From: Saururus chinensis
Taxonomy: Eukaryota > Streptophyta > Magnoliopsida > Piperales > Saururaceae
Direction of reading: 5' to 3'
DNA: 64,000 nt
Assembly: GCA_035235625.1 (NCBI GenBank)
Contig: CP141144.1
Span: forward strand, 23,557,014 to 23,621,013
The notes below the pieces were generated by a model. That model was given only the letters and a program-made list of their open reading frames with translations, ran no database searches and was not told the origin of the DNA. This document shows, piece after piece, positions 52,122 to 60,110 of this stretch. Numbering within the stretch: the first letter of the stretch is position 1; the number at the start of each line of letters is the position of its first letter. A program made the position numbers and the translations under genes.

Positions 52122-52130
52122 ATGAAAAAA
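52122..52130. repeat. Left 9-bp target duplication of the Mutator-like element
   Basis: ATGAAAAAA directly precedes the left terminus and recurs directly after the right terminus at 59804-59812. Nine bases is the normal target duplication length for Mutator elements. Confidence 0.9.
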
Positions 52131-52500
52131 GGGAAAATTATTAAAATAATAATAATAAAAAAAATATTTACCAAAATATACCACTTTGGAAAATATTTCC
52201 CAAAGTGATGTTCGTTTTTGCCACACAGGCGCCAGCCAAGCAGCTGGAGCCAGCGTGGCTTTTTTTTTTAAGTTGATTTCGTCGTTTAGAACGACGAAAT
52301 TGGTTCGAATACGATTTCGTCGTTCTAAACGACGAAACCTTTTATTACTTGACCCGGTTTCGTCGTTTAGAACGACGAAATCAACTTAAGCTGATTTTGT
52401 CGTTTTGAACGACGAAACTGCCACACTTGGCTAATTTCGGCCTTCGGCTGTAGAACAACACTGATTTCTGATTTCGTCGTTCAGAACGACGAAATCAAAT
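52131..52500 (+). repeat. Left terminal inverted repeat with five palindromes
   Basis: Contains five copies of a 23-bp palindrome, arms TTTCGTCGTT and AACGACGAAA around 3 bases: 52277-52299, 52315-52337, 52358-52380, 52395-52417 (one arm base changed) and 52472-52494. The outer part (52176-52262) reads CCACTTTGG...CCAAAGTG and GCGCCAGCCAAGCAGCTGG, further short inverted repeats. All of this recurs inverted at the right end. Confidence 0.9.
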
Positions 52501-52989
52501 TAAATTTTTTTAAAATTACTATTTAAAACTAATTTTATCACATGTCCTTGTTCATTCATTCAAAACACAGAACACAGAACACAGATGTATATGCACGACT
52601 TCATTCATTCCACCCATAACAAATATCACCATAACAAATATCACTATCACGAATATCACCATAACAAATATAAGTAAAGTACATCATATACGAGTAACAA
52701 ATATAATACATCACAAGTAATATCATAATCTCCTACGTCCTCGTCCTCAACGGTGGTGTACGAGCTCCTCATGATCTACCTCTGGCTGTGGCTCTAGCTC
52801 TGGCTCCGACTAGGGCTGGGGCTCCGGCTGCGACTCCATGTCAGGCTCCTGCTTGGGCTCCGGCTCAGCATAAGTAATAGATGGTACAATATGAGCTGGC
52901 CGATGTCGTCTATAATATAAAATCGGATCTGGCTGAGTGACATGTGTAGTGTCTGGAAATGATGAACCTGAAGGAGAGCTATATGCTGC

Positions 52990-55004
52990 TCAAAATGATG
53001 GAATATCAGGGCATGAAGAGTGCATCGGCTGCATCTGAGCGGCCTCGTCGATAGGATAATCTCGATGAACATCCGTGATCACCGAATGAAGTAGTGGCAA
53101 GCTATGAAGGACATCATTAGACGCTCTAATCACCGACTCACATGCTGCTGCTAAGTCCTCGCGCGAAGTACAGGTGACAAGTGCATCACTCAAATACGCA
53201 TTAGTATGTCGAATCTGACGAATCTATAAAAAAATAAATTAAATATTAGATAAATAATTAAAACGAAATAAGAAAATAATATATGCCTTAATTAACAAAG
53301 TTGTACTTACTAGAGCTGCCTCGAATGCTCCCCTAGGCTGATATGTCATCTCCTCTACATCATCACGTGGTAAAATATATCGCCGTGTAATCGGTAAATA
53401 CCAGTGCATATAAGTACTACGAACATCTCGCAATGTCGTAGCCAGCTCCCCTCTAATAATAGTGGCTCTCCTATCCTCCCATCGAGCAATATATGACGCA
53501 TGATATATAGCCCAGTCGGTAATATGGCGGCCCTGTCGAGTGATGCGATGGACAAACTTGACAGTAGAAGGTGGGACCCCTTGCTCCAGGTTAAACTGGA
53601 GCATTACATGATCTGGCACATACATCTCTATAATCTCATAACATATGAGAGGGGTTCGAGAAAGCCACACCTCTCGACCGTCAGTGCAGAGTGGAGGTAT
53701 CACAGCCAACAAGTCCTCCGAGTACGGCTGCCAAATAATCTATATAATATATAAAGATACGTTAGTTTAAATAACGACAATTTTTTTTAAAATCATTACA
53801 TAAAAAAGTTCAACACGGTAATAAAATTACCTGGTATGGCCGCTGGTGGTCTAACTCCCCTCTATACAAACGGAGGACTCCTTGTGGATTTTCGGTTCTC
53901 TTCTTCCGAACATTCCACCTTAAGGAGTTAAATTTAAGAAATGAGTTCAGCATATGTTCATAAAACGTTGCTTAAAAAGTAATGTGGTAAACATAAATAC
54001 AACCTACCTCGCCCCTAATGGAGCACCCTCGACCAAGCAACCCATCTCAGCAGTTGATCGGCCGACGTGTAAGTGCTCCCACGACCATAACTATGTCATA
54101 AAATAGTGATAACAAATATTAGAATTAAAAAATTATACGTGACTAAAACTCCAAGTAAAGTTACACAATAATTTACCTGAAGAAGAGTCAGACAGCCCGC
54201 AATCCCCGAGGTCATGGCCTGACATGCCTTTCCTAACTCTCGGTATAAGAATGCGAGAGTAGCACTGCCCCATGAATAAGTGCCAGCCATGTCAAAGTCG
54301 GCAAGGAGAGAGAGATACGAAACATGCACGTGGCTGCTGGTGGTATCCGCAAATATGGTGGCTCCAAGTAAATGCAATATATAGGCTCGTGCATGCTGCT
54401 CGATAACTATCTCTGTAGCATCGGCTGGGAGCTCACGAAACTCCTGTAAGAGCCATCATAGGCTCACTCGGCTACCATGCATCACTGTAGGAGGAGGAGC
54501 TCTACCAAGAAGTCTAACTAATATATCCATATGAGCTCCTCTTGTCGTGCCTGTCACCAGACGTCCATCAATACGGAGTCCTAATAGAACTGCCACATCC
54601 ATGAGCGTGATGGACATCTCTCCATATGACAAATGAAACGTCTATGTCTCCCTCCTCCATCTCTCAACAAGAGCTGTCAATAGAGGCCGATAGAGACGAA
54701 CATACTGTAGATGAATGAAATGGCCGAATCCCGCTCACTCGATATAAGGTAATACACGCTCATCTATAGGCCAATGGCGGAGATATTTAAAATGTTCGGT
54801 GCACTCAAGGCACCTGGGGTCCTATAATAAATTTTAAAATTATAACATGTCGTACTATATCAACCAAAAAAAAAATAAAACAAATTTTATTTTTAGTTAT
54901 CATACCTCTCCTCTCCAAATAGCAGCAGACCTATGTGACTCCTGCTCTACGAGTAAAGAAGCGTCACTCGGGCCTGGCCCGTAACAAGGCTCTGCATGAT
55001 CCAT
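52990..55004 (-). pseudogene. Plant mobile domain (MAIN/PP7-long-like) gene inside the MULE
   Basis: Exon 1 (55004 to about 54907) reads MDHAEPCYGPGPSDASLLVE and ends WRGE before gtatg. The next exon begins DPRCLECTEHFKYL and holds the domain core: ALVERWRRET, TFHLSYGEMSITLMDVAVLL, GLRIDGRLVTGTTRG, then FADTTSSHVHVSYLSLLADF, SWGSATLAFLYRELGKA and, in later exons, RTPLICYEIIEMYVPDHVM, GVPPSTVKFVHRI and ITDWAIYHASYIARWEDRR. This order is that of plant mobile domain proteins (MAIN, MAIL1 and the long form of PP7), known to occur also inside transposons. At least three in-frame stops lie in the core (after LPYIE, after RRET and after RVSL), so it is a pseudogene copy here. The C-terminal end is rich in Pro-Glu/Ser-Arg repeats of low complexity. 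Confidence 0.8.
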
Positions 55005-55099
55005 ATGATCTGTGGAAGATGAAGATCATATCATTAATCGTAAGGAATACATGCGTACATAACTAAAAAATATAATAAATACAGAGGTTGATTATATGT

Positions 55100-57946
55100 T
55101 TACCAATCAATAGGAGGGTTTCTACATGATTTACTATTATGCCCACTTTGTTTACACCTCTCGCATTTATATCCTCCTCTACCATCTCTTTCCATTGTTC
55201 TGCGGTTCATGGTATTTCTAATGCGAACAGACTGTGGGCGACCGGGTTGCCTTGTTGCTATCGATGGGTATAACACAAACGGTATATCCCTCTCCCAATA
55301 CTCCCGACCACGAGGAGAATAAAATTCTGTGGAGTGCACATTTCTATAAGTAGAAGATGTGTAAAACAGTGATGCATTGATTGGCTCCCGCCGCTTTGCC
55401 CACACGGCGATAAGGTGCGAGCAAGGATAACCATAAACCTGAGGGATGTTGCATGTACAAGTATGCATCGCACCATTTACCATAACCTTGCGGGCACGAA
55501 TTGATGTCACTTCGTACTGACTCCTATTGATCCTATTAACTATATACTCCCCAATTTTTCTTGTTTGCTCTCTCAATATGGCTTCCACTCTAGGAGTATA
55601 TGGGGTGGCTATGGTAGAGGTGGCAGAAGATCATTTAACAAAAAATTTTATGAGCCAATAAAAGATAGCTGACACTAAAGCCTGCATGGGTAACCCTCGT
55701 GCCCCCTTCAAGACGCTATTTAAACTTTCAGCCATATTTGCAGTTGTCATGCCAAATGTCATTAAACCACCGTGTGCAAGGGACCACTGTGCAGGAAGCA
55801 ATTCTCCTCCTAAGAGGAGATGTTTTGCCCTAGGACTCTCTTGACCAATCAAGTCCATTTTAGCATCAAACTTTTCTACTGTGAGTGCACAAGCTCCTGC
55901 CCCAATGAAGTCCATCAGTGTATCATTTTTTAACTCCTTAAAATTTGCTTTTATGTGACGGATGCAATAACGATGGTGGTAATCCGGCTCTGGAAGAACC
56001 TCAGGCACTGCCTTCTGAAGCCCCTTATGTCGATCTGAAATAATGACGATGTTCGTCATGCCCATCAGTACATGATCCCTCAATTCCATTAGAAACCATT
56101 TCCAATTGTCTCCGCCTTCCTTCCCGACAAGCCCGAATGCAAGAGGAAATAACTCATTATTTCCATCATAGCCGTTGCAGCCATAAGAGCACCAGGATAT
56201 CTGCCATACAAGTGAGTGGCATCAACGCTAATCACAGGGATGCAATGTCGAAACCCAGCTATAGACGGCCCAAAGGCCCAAAACAACCATCTAAATCTCC
56301 TACAAGTGCCACCATCTGCACGAGGTACTACATCATCCTCTAAGCGGTAGTAGGTGTGAGGATTGGCTTCTTGCACCGCCCTTAGGTACATTGGCAATAA
56401 TTTATACGATTCAACCCAATCTCCATAAATGGCCTTAATCGCCATATTCCTTGCTGCCCATGCTTTCTTATAAGATATGTCAACATGATACTTCTCCTTC
56501 ATTCTTTGAATAATATCCCCTGGTGTGAGGGTTAATTCGGCTTGGATAGCGGGCATTATGACCTTCAAAATAAAAGAGGCACTGCACTGCCTATGATCTG
56601 TGCTAAGCTGGGCATTCCGACATGTGTGGTCACCTTTGTACGTCTTCAATTTAAAGAACCCACCACCCCTTTTGATTGAGCCATGCACTCTCCAAGGGCA
56701 AGTGCTATCAATGCACTTCACTGTATACTCCGCCGGATATGTTCGTACAACCTTGTATTCGACATGATTTTGAATGGAAAACTCCTGCAAGGTTGTAACG
56801 AATGCTTCTTTATTCTCAAAGATGCGACCAACATATAACTCATCTTCATTTTGTTGGTCCAAATCCATTGTAGAATTCACTGCCGCATCTATCTCCTCAT
56901 CTGTGATGTGTGCATAAAGTGGCTCCACTTCACAGTACGGCGGCTCTTCATCATCTACATTCATATCATTCCCAGCAATGGCATTGTCTACCGCATCATC
57001 CCCCTCGCCGTCAACCATCTGTTGAGCACTTTCTTCACCTCTAACCCCTTCTACATTCATATCAGAATCTTCTCCACTTACTTCGTCAATGTTATCTTCA
57101 CCTTCATTATCCTCATTTTCATCAATATCTTCACTGTAGACATATCCCCCCCTACATATAAACATCGCATATGTATTAAATTTCGTAAGCCTAAAAAAGT
57201 TGAATTCATTTATAAATATATATTTCACCTCTGATTAGATGGTCCAGCATCGGTATGACCAACATACGTGTAGGGGTAATGAAGGCCCATCGAACTTTGA
57301 GTTTCATACCATGCACCGCCTTGAGACATTTGAACGCTAAATGACTCGTGTGCATGCGTCGTAGACCTTCCATATTACACACAAAATCTCAAAATTTAGC
57401 TAAACGTATTTTCATTAAATGATAATAAGATTGAAAATGTATTCACAACTAAATCAACCCTTACCTCCAAGTAGGTCCACTTCCATCGTAAATAGGGGCA
57501 GACGACCTATGACGTTCATTTGAAGCTACTGTCATAGATAAATTTCCCTCTTCTTCGCCGTCCACCGGCACTTGCATATGACTTTCATTGTTCACATTTC
57601 TATCCGAGCTCCTTTGTGAGCTTCTGTGGGAGCTCCTATATAAACTACTTCGCCTTTCACTAGTCACTCGGGCCTCTTTTTCGAGAAATAACTCGAAAGA
57701 AATTATGTGACGCGAGTGGTGAAACATTAAAGCCATTGATGAATCATCATTTATGTTCATTAGTATCATTCTCGATCCATAGGATGGAAGATTACATTTG
57801 ATAGTAATTTTCCATCTTCTTCGATCTAACCCAACCTTACTTGCTACGTGCATCTCAAATTCATCAAATGTAGACGGTTTCTTCATTAATAATCCTTCTA
57901 TGCGCCCGTCGTAGTTAATGAAAAAACTAACCATTTCTTCTGCCAT
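55100..57946 (-). pseudogene. MuDR/Mutator-type transposase with two disabling changes
   Basis: Three exons: 57946-57465 (N-terminal PB1-like part, VSFFINYDGRIEGLLMKKP), 57366-57229 and from 57151. Exon 3 carries an acidic stretch, the MuDR DNA-binding region (VGRIFENKEAFVTTLQEFSI ... YKGDHTCRN), the DDE-like catalytic core (SVDATHLYG; IISDRHKGLQKAV with CIRHI; MAESLNSVLKG), a SWIM finger (CTCNIPQVYGYPCSHL) and a CCHC knuckle (CERCKQSGHNSKSC). The enzyme cuts and inserts Mutator-like elements. Two lesions are visible: a one-base loss near 56165 that shifts the frame between ALMAATAM and FPLAFGLVGKEG, and an in-frame TGA at 55633-55631 before SSATSTIATPYTPRVEAIL. Otherwise the frame is open for more than 900 codons, so decay is recent. 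Splice sites are all GT-AG. Confidence 0.88.
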
Positions 57947-58284
57947 TTCTATTCAATTAATTCATAAATAATAAATTAAATTAATATTAGATTAAGCAAA
58001 CTAATACTAATATCTACCCTAACAAATATATTTTCAAAATATATACGCATAGAAACTAATAACTTAACTAAGTATATAAGCATATCATTAATACTTTATA
58101 TTAATGAGTAAATTTTCTAATTAATAAAATTACACAATTGATGCAATAACGCATATAATGTCACAAATCATATAAAAACATGTTCAAAAACTCAAATCCT
58201 CCTTATTTTCCAAATTTTGAGAGACTTGCCATCTTAAAAAACAAAAACTCATTAATTAAAAATCCATCTCAATTTAATAATCTT

Positions 58285-59002
58285 AAACAAAAAACACACA
58301 AAATGACTTAGAACAATACTTCTAAAATTAGGGCTAAATGATAGGACATTCAAAACTTCAAATTTTTTCAATGTAATATACAAAAACTATATTTCTTCAA
58401 TGTAACATACAAAAAATATATTACAATAATTGAAAAATAGGTAAATAAAAAAAATAGAAAAACACATACCAAAAAAATGAAATGGGAGTGGCTCGACGTG
58501 GGCAGTGGCGGGCTAGACCAAGGCGGCGGTGGAATGAGGTCGACGGCGGCGGGCTGGACGGCGGCGGCGAGTTTGGCAGCGTCCGGACGTCGGCAGAAGC
58601 GGCGGAGCGAAAACAACACACTAGAACGCGACGGGAGGCGGAGCGGAGTCGCGGATATAACGACAATGAGAACGACGAAATCAGTGTCCTCCCACGACCG
58701 AGCCCGAAATAACACAAGTGCGGTAGTTTCGTCATTCAGAACGACGAAATCAGCTTAAGTTGATTTCGTCGTTCTGAACGACGAAACCGGGTCAAGTAAT
58801 ATAAGGTTTCGTCGTTTAGAACGATGAAATCGTATTTAAGCCAATTTCGTCGTTCTAAACGACGAAATCAACTTAAAAAATATAAAAAAAAAAGCCACGC
58901 TGGCGCCAACGTGGCAAAAATGAACACCACTTTGGGAAATATTTCCCAAAGTGGTATATTTTGGTAATTATTATTTTTTAATTATTATTTTAATAAATTT
59001 CC
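58285..59002 (-). repeat. Inner copy of the MULE right end (subterminal region plus TIR)
   Basis: Parallel to 59003-59803: the same AT-rich lead (AAACACACAAAATGACTTAG against AAATACACAAAACGACTGAG), the same GC-rich stretch, and four palindromes (58727-58749, 58764-58786, 58807-58829, 58845-58867), then CCACTTTGGGAAATATTTCC and AATAAATTTCC. It is more diverged at its outermost bases than the outer copy and has no target duplication of its own. Confidence 0.85.
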
Positions 59003-59803
59003 AAACAAAAAAATACACAAAACGACTGAGAATAATACTTTTAAAACTAGGGCACAATGATGGTACAATTAAAACTTCAAATTTATTCAATAAAACTAGG
59101 GCACAATGATGGTACAATTAAAACTTTAAATTTATTCAATATAGCATACAAAAGATAAATTACTTCAATTTAACATATAAAAGATCCTTTACAACGATTG
59201 AAAAAAGAAATTAAAAAAAAAAGGCAAAAGTTCGCACCAGAAAACTGCACTGGAGCGGGTTGGACGCAGGCAGCGGATGGGCTGGACGTGGGCGGCGGTG
59301 GCTGGACGGTGGCGACTGTGGGCGGGACGTTGGCGATGGGCCGGATGTCGGCAGAGGCGGGCGGTGGATCGCTCGATGGAGGCGGAGCGGAGCGGAGAGC
59401 AATTCACTGAGGCGACTGGAGGCGGAGCGGATTCGGAAGTATAAGCACGATGATTTTGTAGTTCAAAACGACGAAATTAGTGTTGTTACATGGCCCAAGG
59501 CCGAAATTAGCTAAGTGTGGCAGTTTTGTCGTTCAGAACGACGATATCAGCTTAAGTTGATTTCATCGTTTTGAACGACGAAACCGGGTCAAGTAATAAA
59601 AGGTTTCGTCGTTTAGAACGACGAAATCGTATTAAAGCCAATTTTGTCGTTCTAAACGACGAAATCAACTTAAAAAAAAACCACGTTGGCGCCAGCTGCT
59701 TGGCTGGCGCCTGCGTGGCAAAAACTAACACCACTTTGAGAAATATTTCCCAAAGTGATATATTTTGGTAAATATTTTTTTTTATTATTTTAATAATTTT
59801 CCC
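59003..59803 (-). repeat. Outer right terminal inverted repeat of the MULE
   Basis: Contains palindromes at 59524-59546, 59561-59583, 59604-59626 and 59642-59664, plus a degenerate one near 59455-59477. The part 59700-59803 mirrors 52131-52240 closely, including GCGCCAGCTGCTTGGCTGG. A 48-bp segment (ACTAGGGCACAATGATGG...) is duplicated at about 59047-59140. Confidence 0.88.
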
Positions 59804-60110
59804 ATGAAAAAATAATCCCTTAAAGTTGATGACATCAATTATTTTGGGTAAGGAGCCTAGATGAGGGGGTGGGCAAACCAACCATATGCTGTATCAGGGT
59901 TCATGGGATCAAGATATCAGAGTATGCATAATAAAGTGGGTTATAAAAAATTGAGATCCAACCGCTCACATAACCAAGGGGCCAACCCAAATAGACGGGG
60001 CCCGAGGGTGCATGAACGCATATTAAAGGCACCCTTTTATTCTTTTAATAAAAAAATATTATGTACTACTAAGTTGGAGAAGGTAAAAATTGTCAACAAA
60101 AATTGTAGCT

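Follow-up and report, generated by a model that had tools for sequence, protein, structure and literature searches.

Do plant mobile domain (PMD) genes serve the Mutator-like elements (MULEs) that carry them? The question is raised by an element at positions 52131-59803 of a 64,000-nucleotide stretch of the Saururus chinensis genome (contig CP141144.1, 23,557,014 to 23,621,013; the whole stretch is called the window), in which a PMD gene lies beside the transposase gene. In the portions of the literature consulted, whether plant MULEs use their PMD genes was unsettled; a tree-based test is described here. We find that, on the shared branches of the family tree, purifying selection acts on the PMD core no less strongly than on the transposase; PMD is therefore a working part of the element. 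That the element and its selected gene pair are real is almost certain. The pairing of PMD and MULE is already known from other plants; the selection test is the new part, and a further result is that one genome holds two PMD-carrying MULE families with opposite gene arrangements.

The window copy is delimited to the base by identical ATGAAAAAA 9-mers, at 52122-52130 on the left and 59804-59812 on the right, and both of its termini start with GGGAAAATTATTAAAATAAT. Its ends are inverted repeats made of two adjoining arm pairs of 208 and 111 nt (91 and 92% complementary), with the arms covering 52157-52468 (312 bp). Using a Pfam scan of its gene pieces, both genes lying on the minus strand, we recognised DBD_Tnp_Mut (PF03108), MULE (PF10551) and SWIM (PF04434) above the Pfam cut-off in the transposase, a CCHC knuckle below the cut-off, and PMD (PF10536) in three exon pieces of the second gene, downstream of the transposase. 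The copy thus shows the MULE hallmarks of a 9-bp target duplication, long terminal inverted repeats (TIRs) and MuDR/MULE transposase domains. These results bear out the first-pass annotation, which had described a complete MULE with an exact 9-bp duplication and a minus-strand pair of MuDR-type transposase and PMD genes. Identical 9-bp duplications were also read at four further loci (L039, L040, L042 and L071), and L041 shows one if its first two left-end bases are counted as changed.

Selection was examined in 36 of 39 loci (L018, L026 and L071 were too short), aligned over the PMD gene and the final third of the transposase, with changes counted by parsimony on one tree, separately for shared (internal) branches and tips. 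The mutation spectrum was calibrated on 305 intron columns, keeping CG and CHG contexts apart; the small exon 3a, which the script did not find, was left among these columns, and a first pass with exon 3b also among the introns gave the same picture. On internal branches, the ratio of nonsynonymous to synonymous change (omega) was 0.22 for the C-terminal part of the transposase, 0.20 for PMD exon 2, 0.41 for exon 4 and 0.81 for the tail exon, with 0, 0, 3 and 1 stops seen against 23.7, 14.8, 11.1 and 7.5 expected, respectively. At the tips, the corresponding omega values were 0.87, 0.72, 1.42 and 0.93, and stops were seen about as often as expected (32 against 29.9, 26 against 29.1, 25 against 23.9 and 14 against 14.5). 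The counts of nonsynonymous and synonymous changes (N:S) differed between internal and terminal branches for the transposase (Fisher test, 1e-15), exon 2 (8e-9) and exon 4 (6e-5), while those of the tail exon, which is weakly constrained, were alike (p=0.54). Most loci were chosen by PMD score, a choice that may favour exon 2 on terminal branches; agreement comes from the transposase and exon 4, which had little or no weight in it. Copies decay near neutrally after insertion, and the lineages that kept jumping retained the PMD core. No earlier selection test on a MULE-borne PMD was found in the literature searched, which was seen in part and covered few subscription papers.

These figures make it extremely improbable that PMD travels as a passenger, a functionless fragment of some host gene. 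Such fragments are frequent in MULEs (PMC6446971; here and below, papers are cited for the parts of them that were accessible), and PMD has been lost in some copies (L071). Against this stand the internal omega of 0.20, the absence of stops where 14.8 were expected, and the presence of PMD in diverged subfamilies and likewise in a second family.

The family is large, and its two genes travel together. In the genome searched (516 Mb, 11 contigs), further copies with the same ends are abundant, with at least 40 scored places carrying the left end; the absence of such copies, which would have refuted the first-pass annotation, is thereby not what was observed. The seven best-scoring other end loci all continue into family sequence, on the PMD side at L002, L004, L007 and L008 and on the transposase side at L003, L005 and L006. 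Among the matches listed, 75 of 113 scored transposase matches have a PMD partner, in every case downstream and on the same strand; the other 38 include L041, L068 and L069, which do hold the PMD gene. Distances from the transposase to PMD exon 4 (n=66, a 443-bp exon offset being subtracted from minus-strand figures) fall within 2374-2383 bp in 50 cases, and the rest run from 2135 to 5596 bp in the listed figures. Starting from PMD matches instead, the transposase sequence continues without a break upstream of PMD at 25 of 29 family loci; it is interrupted at L028 and L034, and L018 and L026 have no transposase within the 1.5 kb examined. The first-pass annotation had allowed for a chance insertion of the PMD gene at this one locus, a possibility removed by the 75 linked pairs and by the selection on PMD. 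It had also asked whether full-length copies always keep both genes, which holds in part. Among ten whole transposase-bearing stretches compared (the window, L039-L043 and L068-L071), the seven that align end to end all hold both genes, and L043 and L070 cease matching inside PMD exon 4; L071, on the other hand, keeps both ends but lacks PMD exons 1-4 as well as the final part of the transposase.

The thirtieth locus of the PMD-seeded set, L011, belongs to a second family and was left out of the 29. Reading L011-type PMDs as host genes was rejected, as they form a second repeated family beside a MULE transposase. PMDs of the L046/L072 type make up this separate family and are 41-43% identical to the window family's L024. 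At L072, a MULE-like transposase (PF10551, 26.7 bits against a cut-off of 27.6, in a stretch that lacks the first part of the gene) lies opposite in strand to PMD, the two genes occupying L072:4583-6034 (+) and L072:7781-9592 (-) in convergent orientation. The transposase frame there runs on for hundreds of residues. Part of it is presumably OTU-protease-like, although Pfam gave no such match. Pairing was counted from 69 transposase pieces (from 86 listed places) and 78 PMD matches (of 150 listed), where pieces are not equal to copies and some copies give two. A PMD match lies within 20 kb of 49 of the 69 pieces (within 8.3 kb for 42 of them), and all 49 linked pairs are convergent. Here too, PMD is constrained on internal branches: N:S:stop counts are 10:26:0 internally and 78:37:10 terminally (p=3.3e-5; 12 rows, duplicate removed), and omega, with the duplicate row still in, is 0.23 and 1.03, respectively. 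In the two longer of the stretches alignable by BLAST, of 139 and 112 positions, the transposases of the two families are 17 and 20% identical (E=0.002 and 0.098); their PMDs reach 39% over 223 positions (E=7e-50). As the PMDs are closer than the transposases, separate acquisition of PMD or its exchange between families fits better than joint descent, although rates may differ.

What might the PMD protein do for the element? The first-pass annotation had put it forward as a candidate counter-silencing or mobility cofactor. Our preferred reading, to which we give a probability of roughly 45%, is that it is the element's counter-silencing factor. In working members of the family, a single strand codes for both proteins, first the MULE transposase and then, after a gap of 95 bp, the PMD protein, which would act in trans. 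The latter would be recruited to the element's own non-coding ends, each with about five CG-containing 23-bp palindromes, and would keep transposase transcription open against host DNA methylation or a MAIN/MAIL1-type pathway, as VANC does for VANDAL MULEs. We prefer this reading because of the palindrome arrays in the ends and a weak resemblance between PMD and DUF1985; that the palindromes themselves are the target of the PMD protein is doubtful.

The 23-bp palindrome, TTTCGTCGTTNNNAACGACGAAA, contains CG and is repeated about five times per end. The pattern TTTCGTCGTT-NNN-AACGACGAAA occurs three to six times per end (≤4 mismatches) in the eight copies counted, and the consensus of 25 ends holds five 23-bp palindromes and one 30-bp palindrome nearer the tip. 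Genome-wide, the exact 23-mer pattern has 1152 occurrences, against 0 for a reversed control; within the window it is confined to the element's ends (14 matches with ≤3 mismatches, 0 expected). In the window copy, the left terminal region (52131-52510, plus strand) carries five palindromes, starting at 52277, 52315, 52358, 52395 and 52472, and the right side carries four in an inner terminal region (58282-59002) and five (≤2 mismatches) in an outer one (59003-59803). The arrays are a hallmark of the family, and the palindromes are plausible candidates for protein sites. The element ends are altogether stacks of palindromes: the near-perfect 30-bp palindrome of the 25-end consensus, ACCACTTTGGGAAATATTTCCCAAAGTGGT, lies at 52180-52209, 58926-58955 and 59730-59759, and is followed by a GC-rich imperfect hairpin.

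VANC anti-silencing proteins carry DUF1985 and act at short-motif arrays in non-coding DNA (PMC5735166). All 24 PMD proteins compared match Pfam DUF1985 below its cut-off (best E=1.9e-4), and scored with the DUF1985 profile all 24 lie above all 2400 shuffles. Conversely, with the PMD profile, 7 of 7 DUF1985 proteins of this genome score above all 1750 shuffles; these come from 7 of 12 loci, the other 5 having no frame of 115 residues. DUF1985 proteins are themselves repeated in the genome, at no fewer than 150 places, 146 of those listed being over the cut-off, and three of the 12 loci examined (L056-L067) have open frames of 226-250 residues. DUF287 is absent from the Pfam results for PMD pieces and PMD cores. 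The window family resembles VANDAL elements with VANC in three respects: a further gene accompanies the MULE transposase, non-coding DNA carries arrays of a short motif, and DUF1985 and PMD are remotely alike; it differs in that PMD takes the place of DUF1985 and DUF287, the TIRs are long, and the motif is a CG-containing palindrome inside them. A literature search for DUF1985 and plant mobile domain together, covering few subscription papers, found no paper.

Several observations weigh against the counter-silencing reading. The PMD-DUF1985 alignments span about 40-55 residues and remain under the Pfam cut-off; hhalign, with shallow alignments, gave a probability of 16% (controls: 0.03% for reversed DUF1985 and 0.15% for transposase against DUF1985); and neither of the two DUF1985 proteins scanned has a PMD match up to E=10. 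VANDAL ends are degenerate (PMC10398659), unlike the long TIRs found here. In the 25-end alignment, palindrome arms are 95.6% conserved, the outermost stretch 94.8% and spacers 90.0%, and CG pairs are kept in 394 of 481 cases inside palindromes and 164 of 210 elsewhere in the ends. Since the arms match the outermost stretch in conservation, and CG pairs are retained at about the same rate inside and outside, the palindromes may simply be transposase sites. CG retention as proof of palindrome protection is accordingly not supported. Finally, the purifying selection on PMD fits a transposition cofactor equally well.

Such a cofactor, comparable to maize MURB, would join the transposase in its action on the ends and would leave silencing untouched; we consider this possible, though less likely than not, and close behind the counter-silencing reading. 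The two genes lie on the same strand, 95 bp apart, under similarly strong selection, and mudrB is cited as apparently necessary for integration (PMC6446971). Pointing the other way, many MULE groups are listed without PMD (PMC6446971 Table 1), host PMD proteins have roles in silencing and in expression (PMC5418596, PMC7156037), and in the second family every one of the 49 linked pairs has PMD and transposase on opposite strands, so that co-expression from one transcript is not general.

Silencing by host PMD proteins bears on two other explanations. The PMD proteins MAIN and MAIL1 are interaction partners of PP7L with a part in silencing (PMC7156037), and a transposon-made PMD has been suggested as a counter-silencing strategy in a review (PMC8616336). 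The element's protein might therefore be a decoy or dominant-negative form of the host MAIN/MAIL1-PP7L complex that derepresses the genome generally, beyond this one family. We think this unlikely: no host PMD gene (MAIN/MAIL) was identified in this analysis, and general derepression would presumably be costly to the host. As host PMD proteins repress transposons (PMC5418596) and strong selection by itself gives no direction of effect, PMD might alternatively restrain the element, for example by damping transposase expression. The high copy number argues against such self-regulation, and selection at the level of the element would hardly keep a restrainer over many rounds of transposition; we judge it highly unlikely.

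Returning to PMD as a counter-silencing factor, the idea is already in print for MULE-borne PMDs (PMC5418596) and, in review, for transposon-borne PMDs (PMC8616336). Among plant MULEs, groups 46-50, which include MuDR-9_OS, MULE-Monocots, MDR, MUDRAVI2 and MUDR, contain PMD (Dupeyron et al. 2019, PMC6446971), in most members of groups 47-49 and in antisense in most of group 50; MULE-Solanaceae_1 has it in antisense, and half of VANDAL members are given as 'PMD and/or DUF' (PMC6446971 Table 1). The window family is like groups 46-50 in its 9-bp duplication, TIRs, SWIM/CCHC transposase and PMD gene within the element. PMD is sense in the window family and antisense in the second family, and both arrangements occur among groups 46-50 and MULE-Solanaceae_1. 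Selection on PMD and the palindrome arrays go beyond these groups as described in the accessible parts of that paper. The presence of a transposase and the selection on PMD also set the family apart from Pack-MULEs, which lack a transposase and contain gene fragments only. Eudicots hold mainly genic PMD-C (PMC7156037). Fusions of MULE transposase and PMD-C occur in grasses and Amborella, with anti-silencing speculated (Ikeda et al. 2017, PMC5418596). Like these fusions, the present family is a MULE with PMD next to the transposase; unlike them, it has two reading frames with a 95-bp intron-like gap between.

That gap (55005-55099, minus strand), which runs from the transposase stop to the PMD start and resembles a short GT-AG intron, has a counterpart in 35 of 36 aligned copies, L028 being without it. 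Most copies carry a donor-like G/GTAAA and an acceptor-like site, judged by eye, and subfamilies differ by a 3-bp indel. Removing the gap through the best-looking GT-AG pair leaves a stop between the transposase and PMD frames, so that a straightforward fusion of the grass type does not seem the best reading; use of another donor, weaker and less conserved, could still join both frames.

More broadly, PMD and DUF1985 might have branched from a single MULE accessory domain that originally served sequence-targeted anti-silencing. Lineages, two of them in this genome, would keep it in different orientations, each with its own motif array, here the 23-bp palindrome, and in host MAIN/MAIL1 a weapon of transposons would have been domesticated or mirrored. 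This is a speculative proposal that we consider rather unlikely.

The copy in the window is dead, with both genes broken, and is an old, inactivated, double-ended member of this high-copy MULE family. On the minus strand, six-frame translation and Pfam place the first transposase exon at 57462-57946 (PB1-like below the cut-off, E=0.069) and the main exon, with MuDR DNA-binding, MULE, SWIM and CCHC-like parts, at 55100-57180 (5' limit approximate); the latter is interrupted by a frameshift near 56170 and, in frame, by a stop codon at 55631-55633. PMD exon 1 follows at 54907-55004 (presumed start ATG at 55004; 3' limit approximate). Exon 2, at 54177-54821, is the PMD core (profile 1-181) and contains three in-frame stops, at 54737, 54644 and 54458. 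The small exons 3a (54007-54090) and 3b (53831-53917) have limits inferred, for 3b from reading frame and splice-like sites, and exon 4 (profile 239-346; PF10536, E=2.5e-20) lies at 53315-53739 (3' limit approximate). The last exon, approximately 52797-53223 and broken here, encodes acidic P/E-rich repeats, which in the intact copy L042 are followed by an RG-rich tail. Open frames exist elsewhere in the family: L040 and L041 have a main transposase frame of 711 codons, and PMD exon 2 is open in L040 and L042. For the PMD core alone, AlphaFold2 returned a pLDDT of 39.7, and no match up to E=1 was found between PDB chains and the PMD profile.

A frameshift common to a dead subfamily spread in trans was also considered, prompted by transposase matches that follow the window's frame past its frameshift, which were picked out by the query itself. 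When five such matches were aligned, none shared the window's loss; four different single-base losses occur among them, one common to L069 and L071. The window's frameshift is therefore private among the five aligned copies, and the idea was rejected for the window copy.

Ordinary family copies measure 6906-6948 bp; the window copy exceeds this length through an additional right end that has diverged from the first. Its native, inner right end, which closes at 59002, lines up with that of single-ended copies, so the outer 801 bp are extra. Inner and outer units are about 74% identical over 720 aligned positions, so the duplication is not a fresh one. A repeat spaced by about 49 bp lies near 59057-59140, inside the outer unit. 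Among 40 scored places, a 161-bp junction query matched as a whole only the window itself. Most other matches end within about 15 bp of the junction; two continue beyond it, one for 20 bp (92% identity) and one for 35 bp (90%), and the junction may thus be partially shared with other copies. With the whole junction in a single copy, there is no clear sign of amplification. Given the 9-bp duplication at the outer end, either the double-ended form inserted or the extra unit comes from an older resident. Terminal repeats in tandem have been described in other MULEs (Ferguson and Jiang 2012, PMC3310237), and the window copy resembles these elements in the extra tandem repeat at one of its ends, but differs in the lack of clear amplification.

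For the biology of these elements, the findings mean that an intact PMD core was retained in those lineages that continued to spread, and that this holds for two distinct families within a single genome. The 2017 speculation becomes testable, with a gene, open-frame copies elsewhere in the genome and a candidate target motif at hand. If PMD is indeed a counter-silencing factor, the host MAIN/MAIL1 pathway and the transposon's counter-measures would use the same domain.

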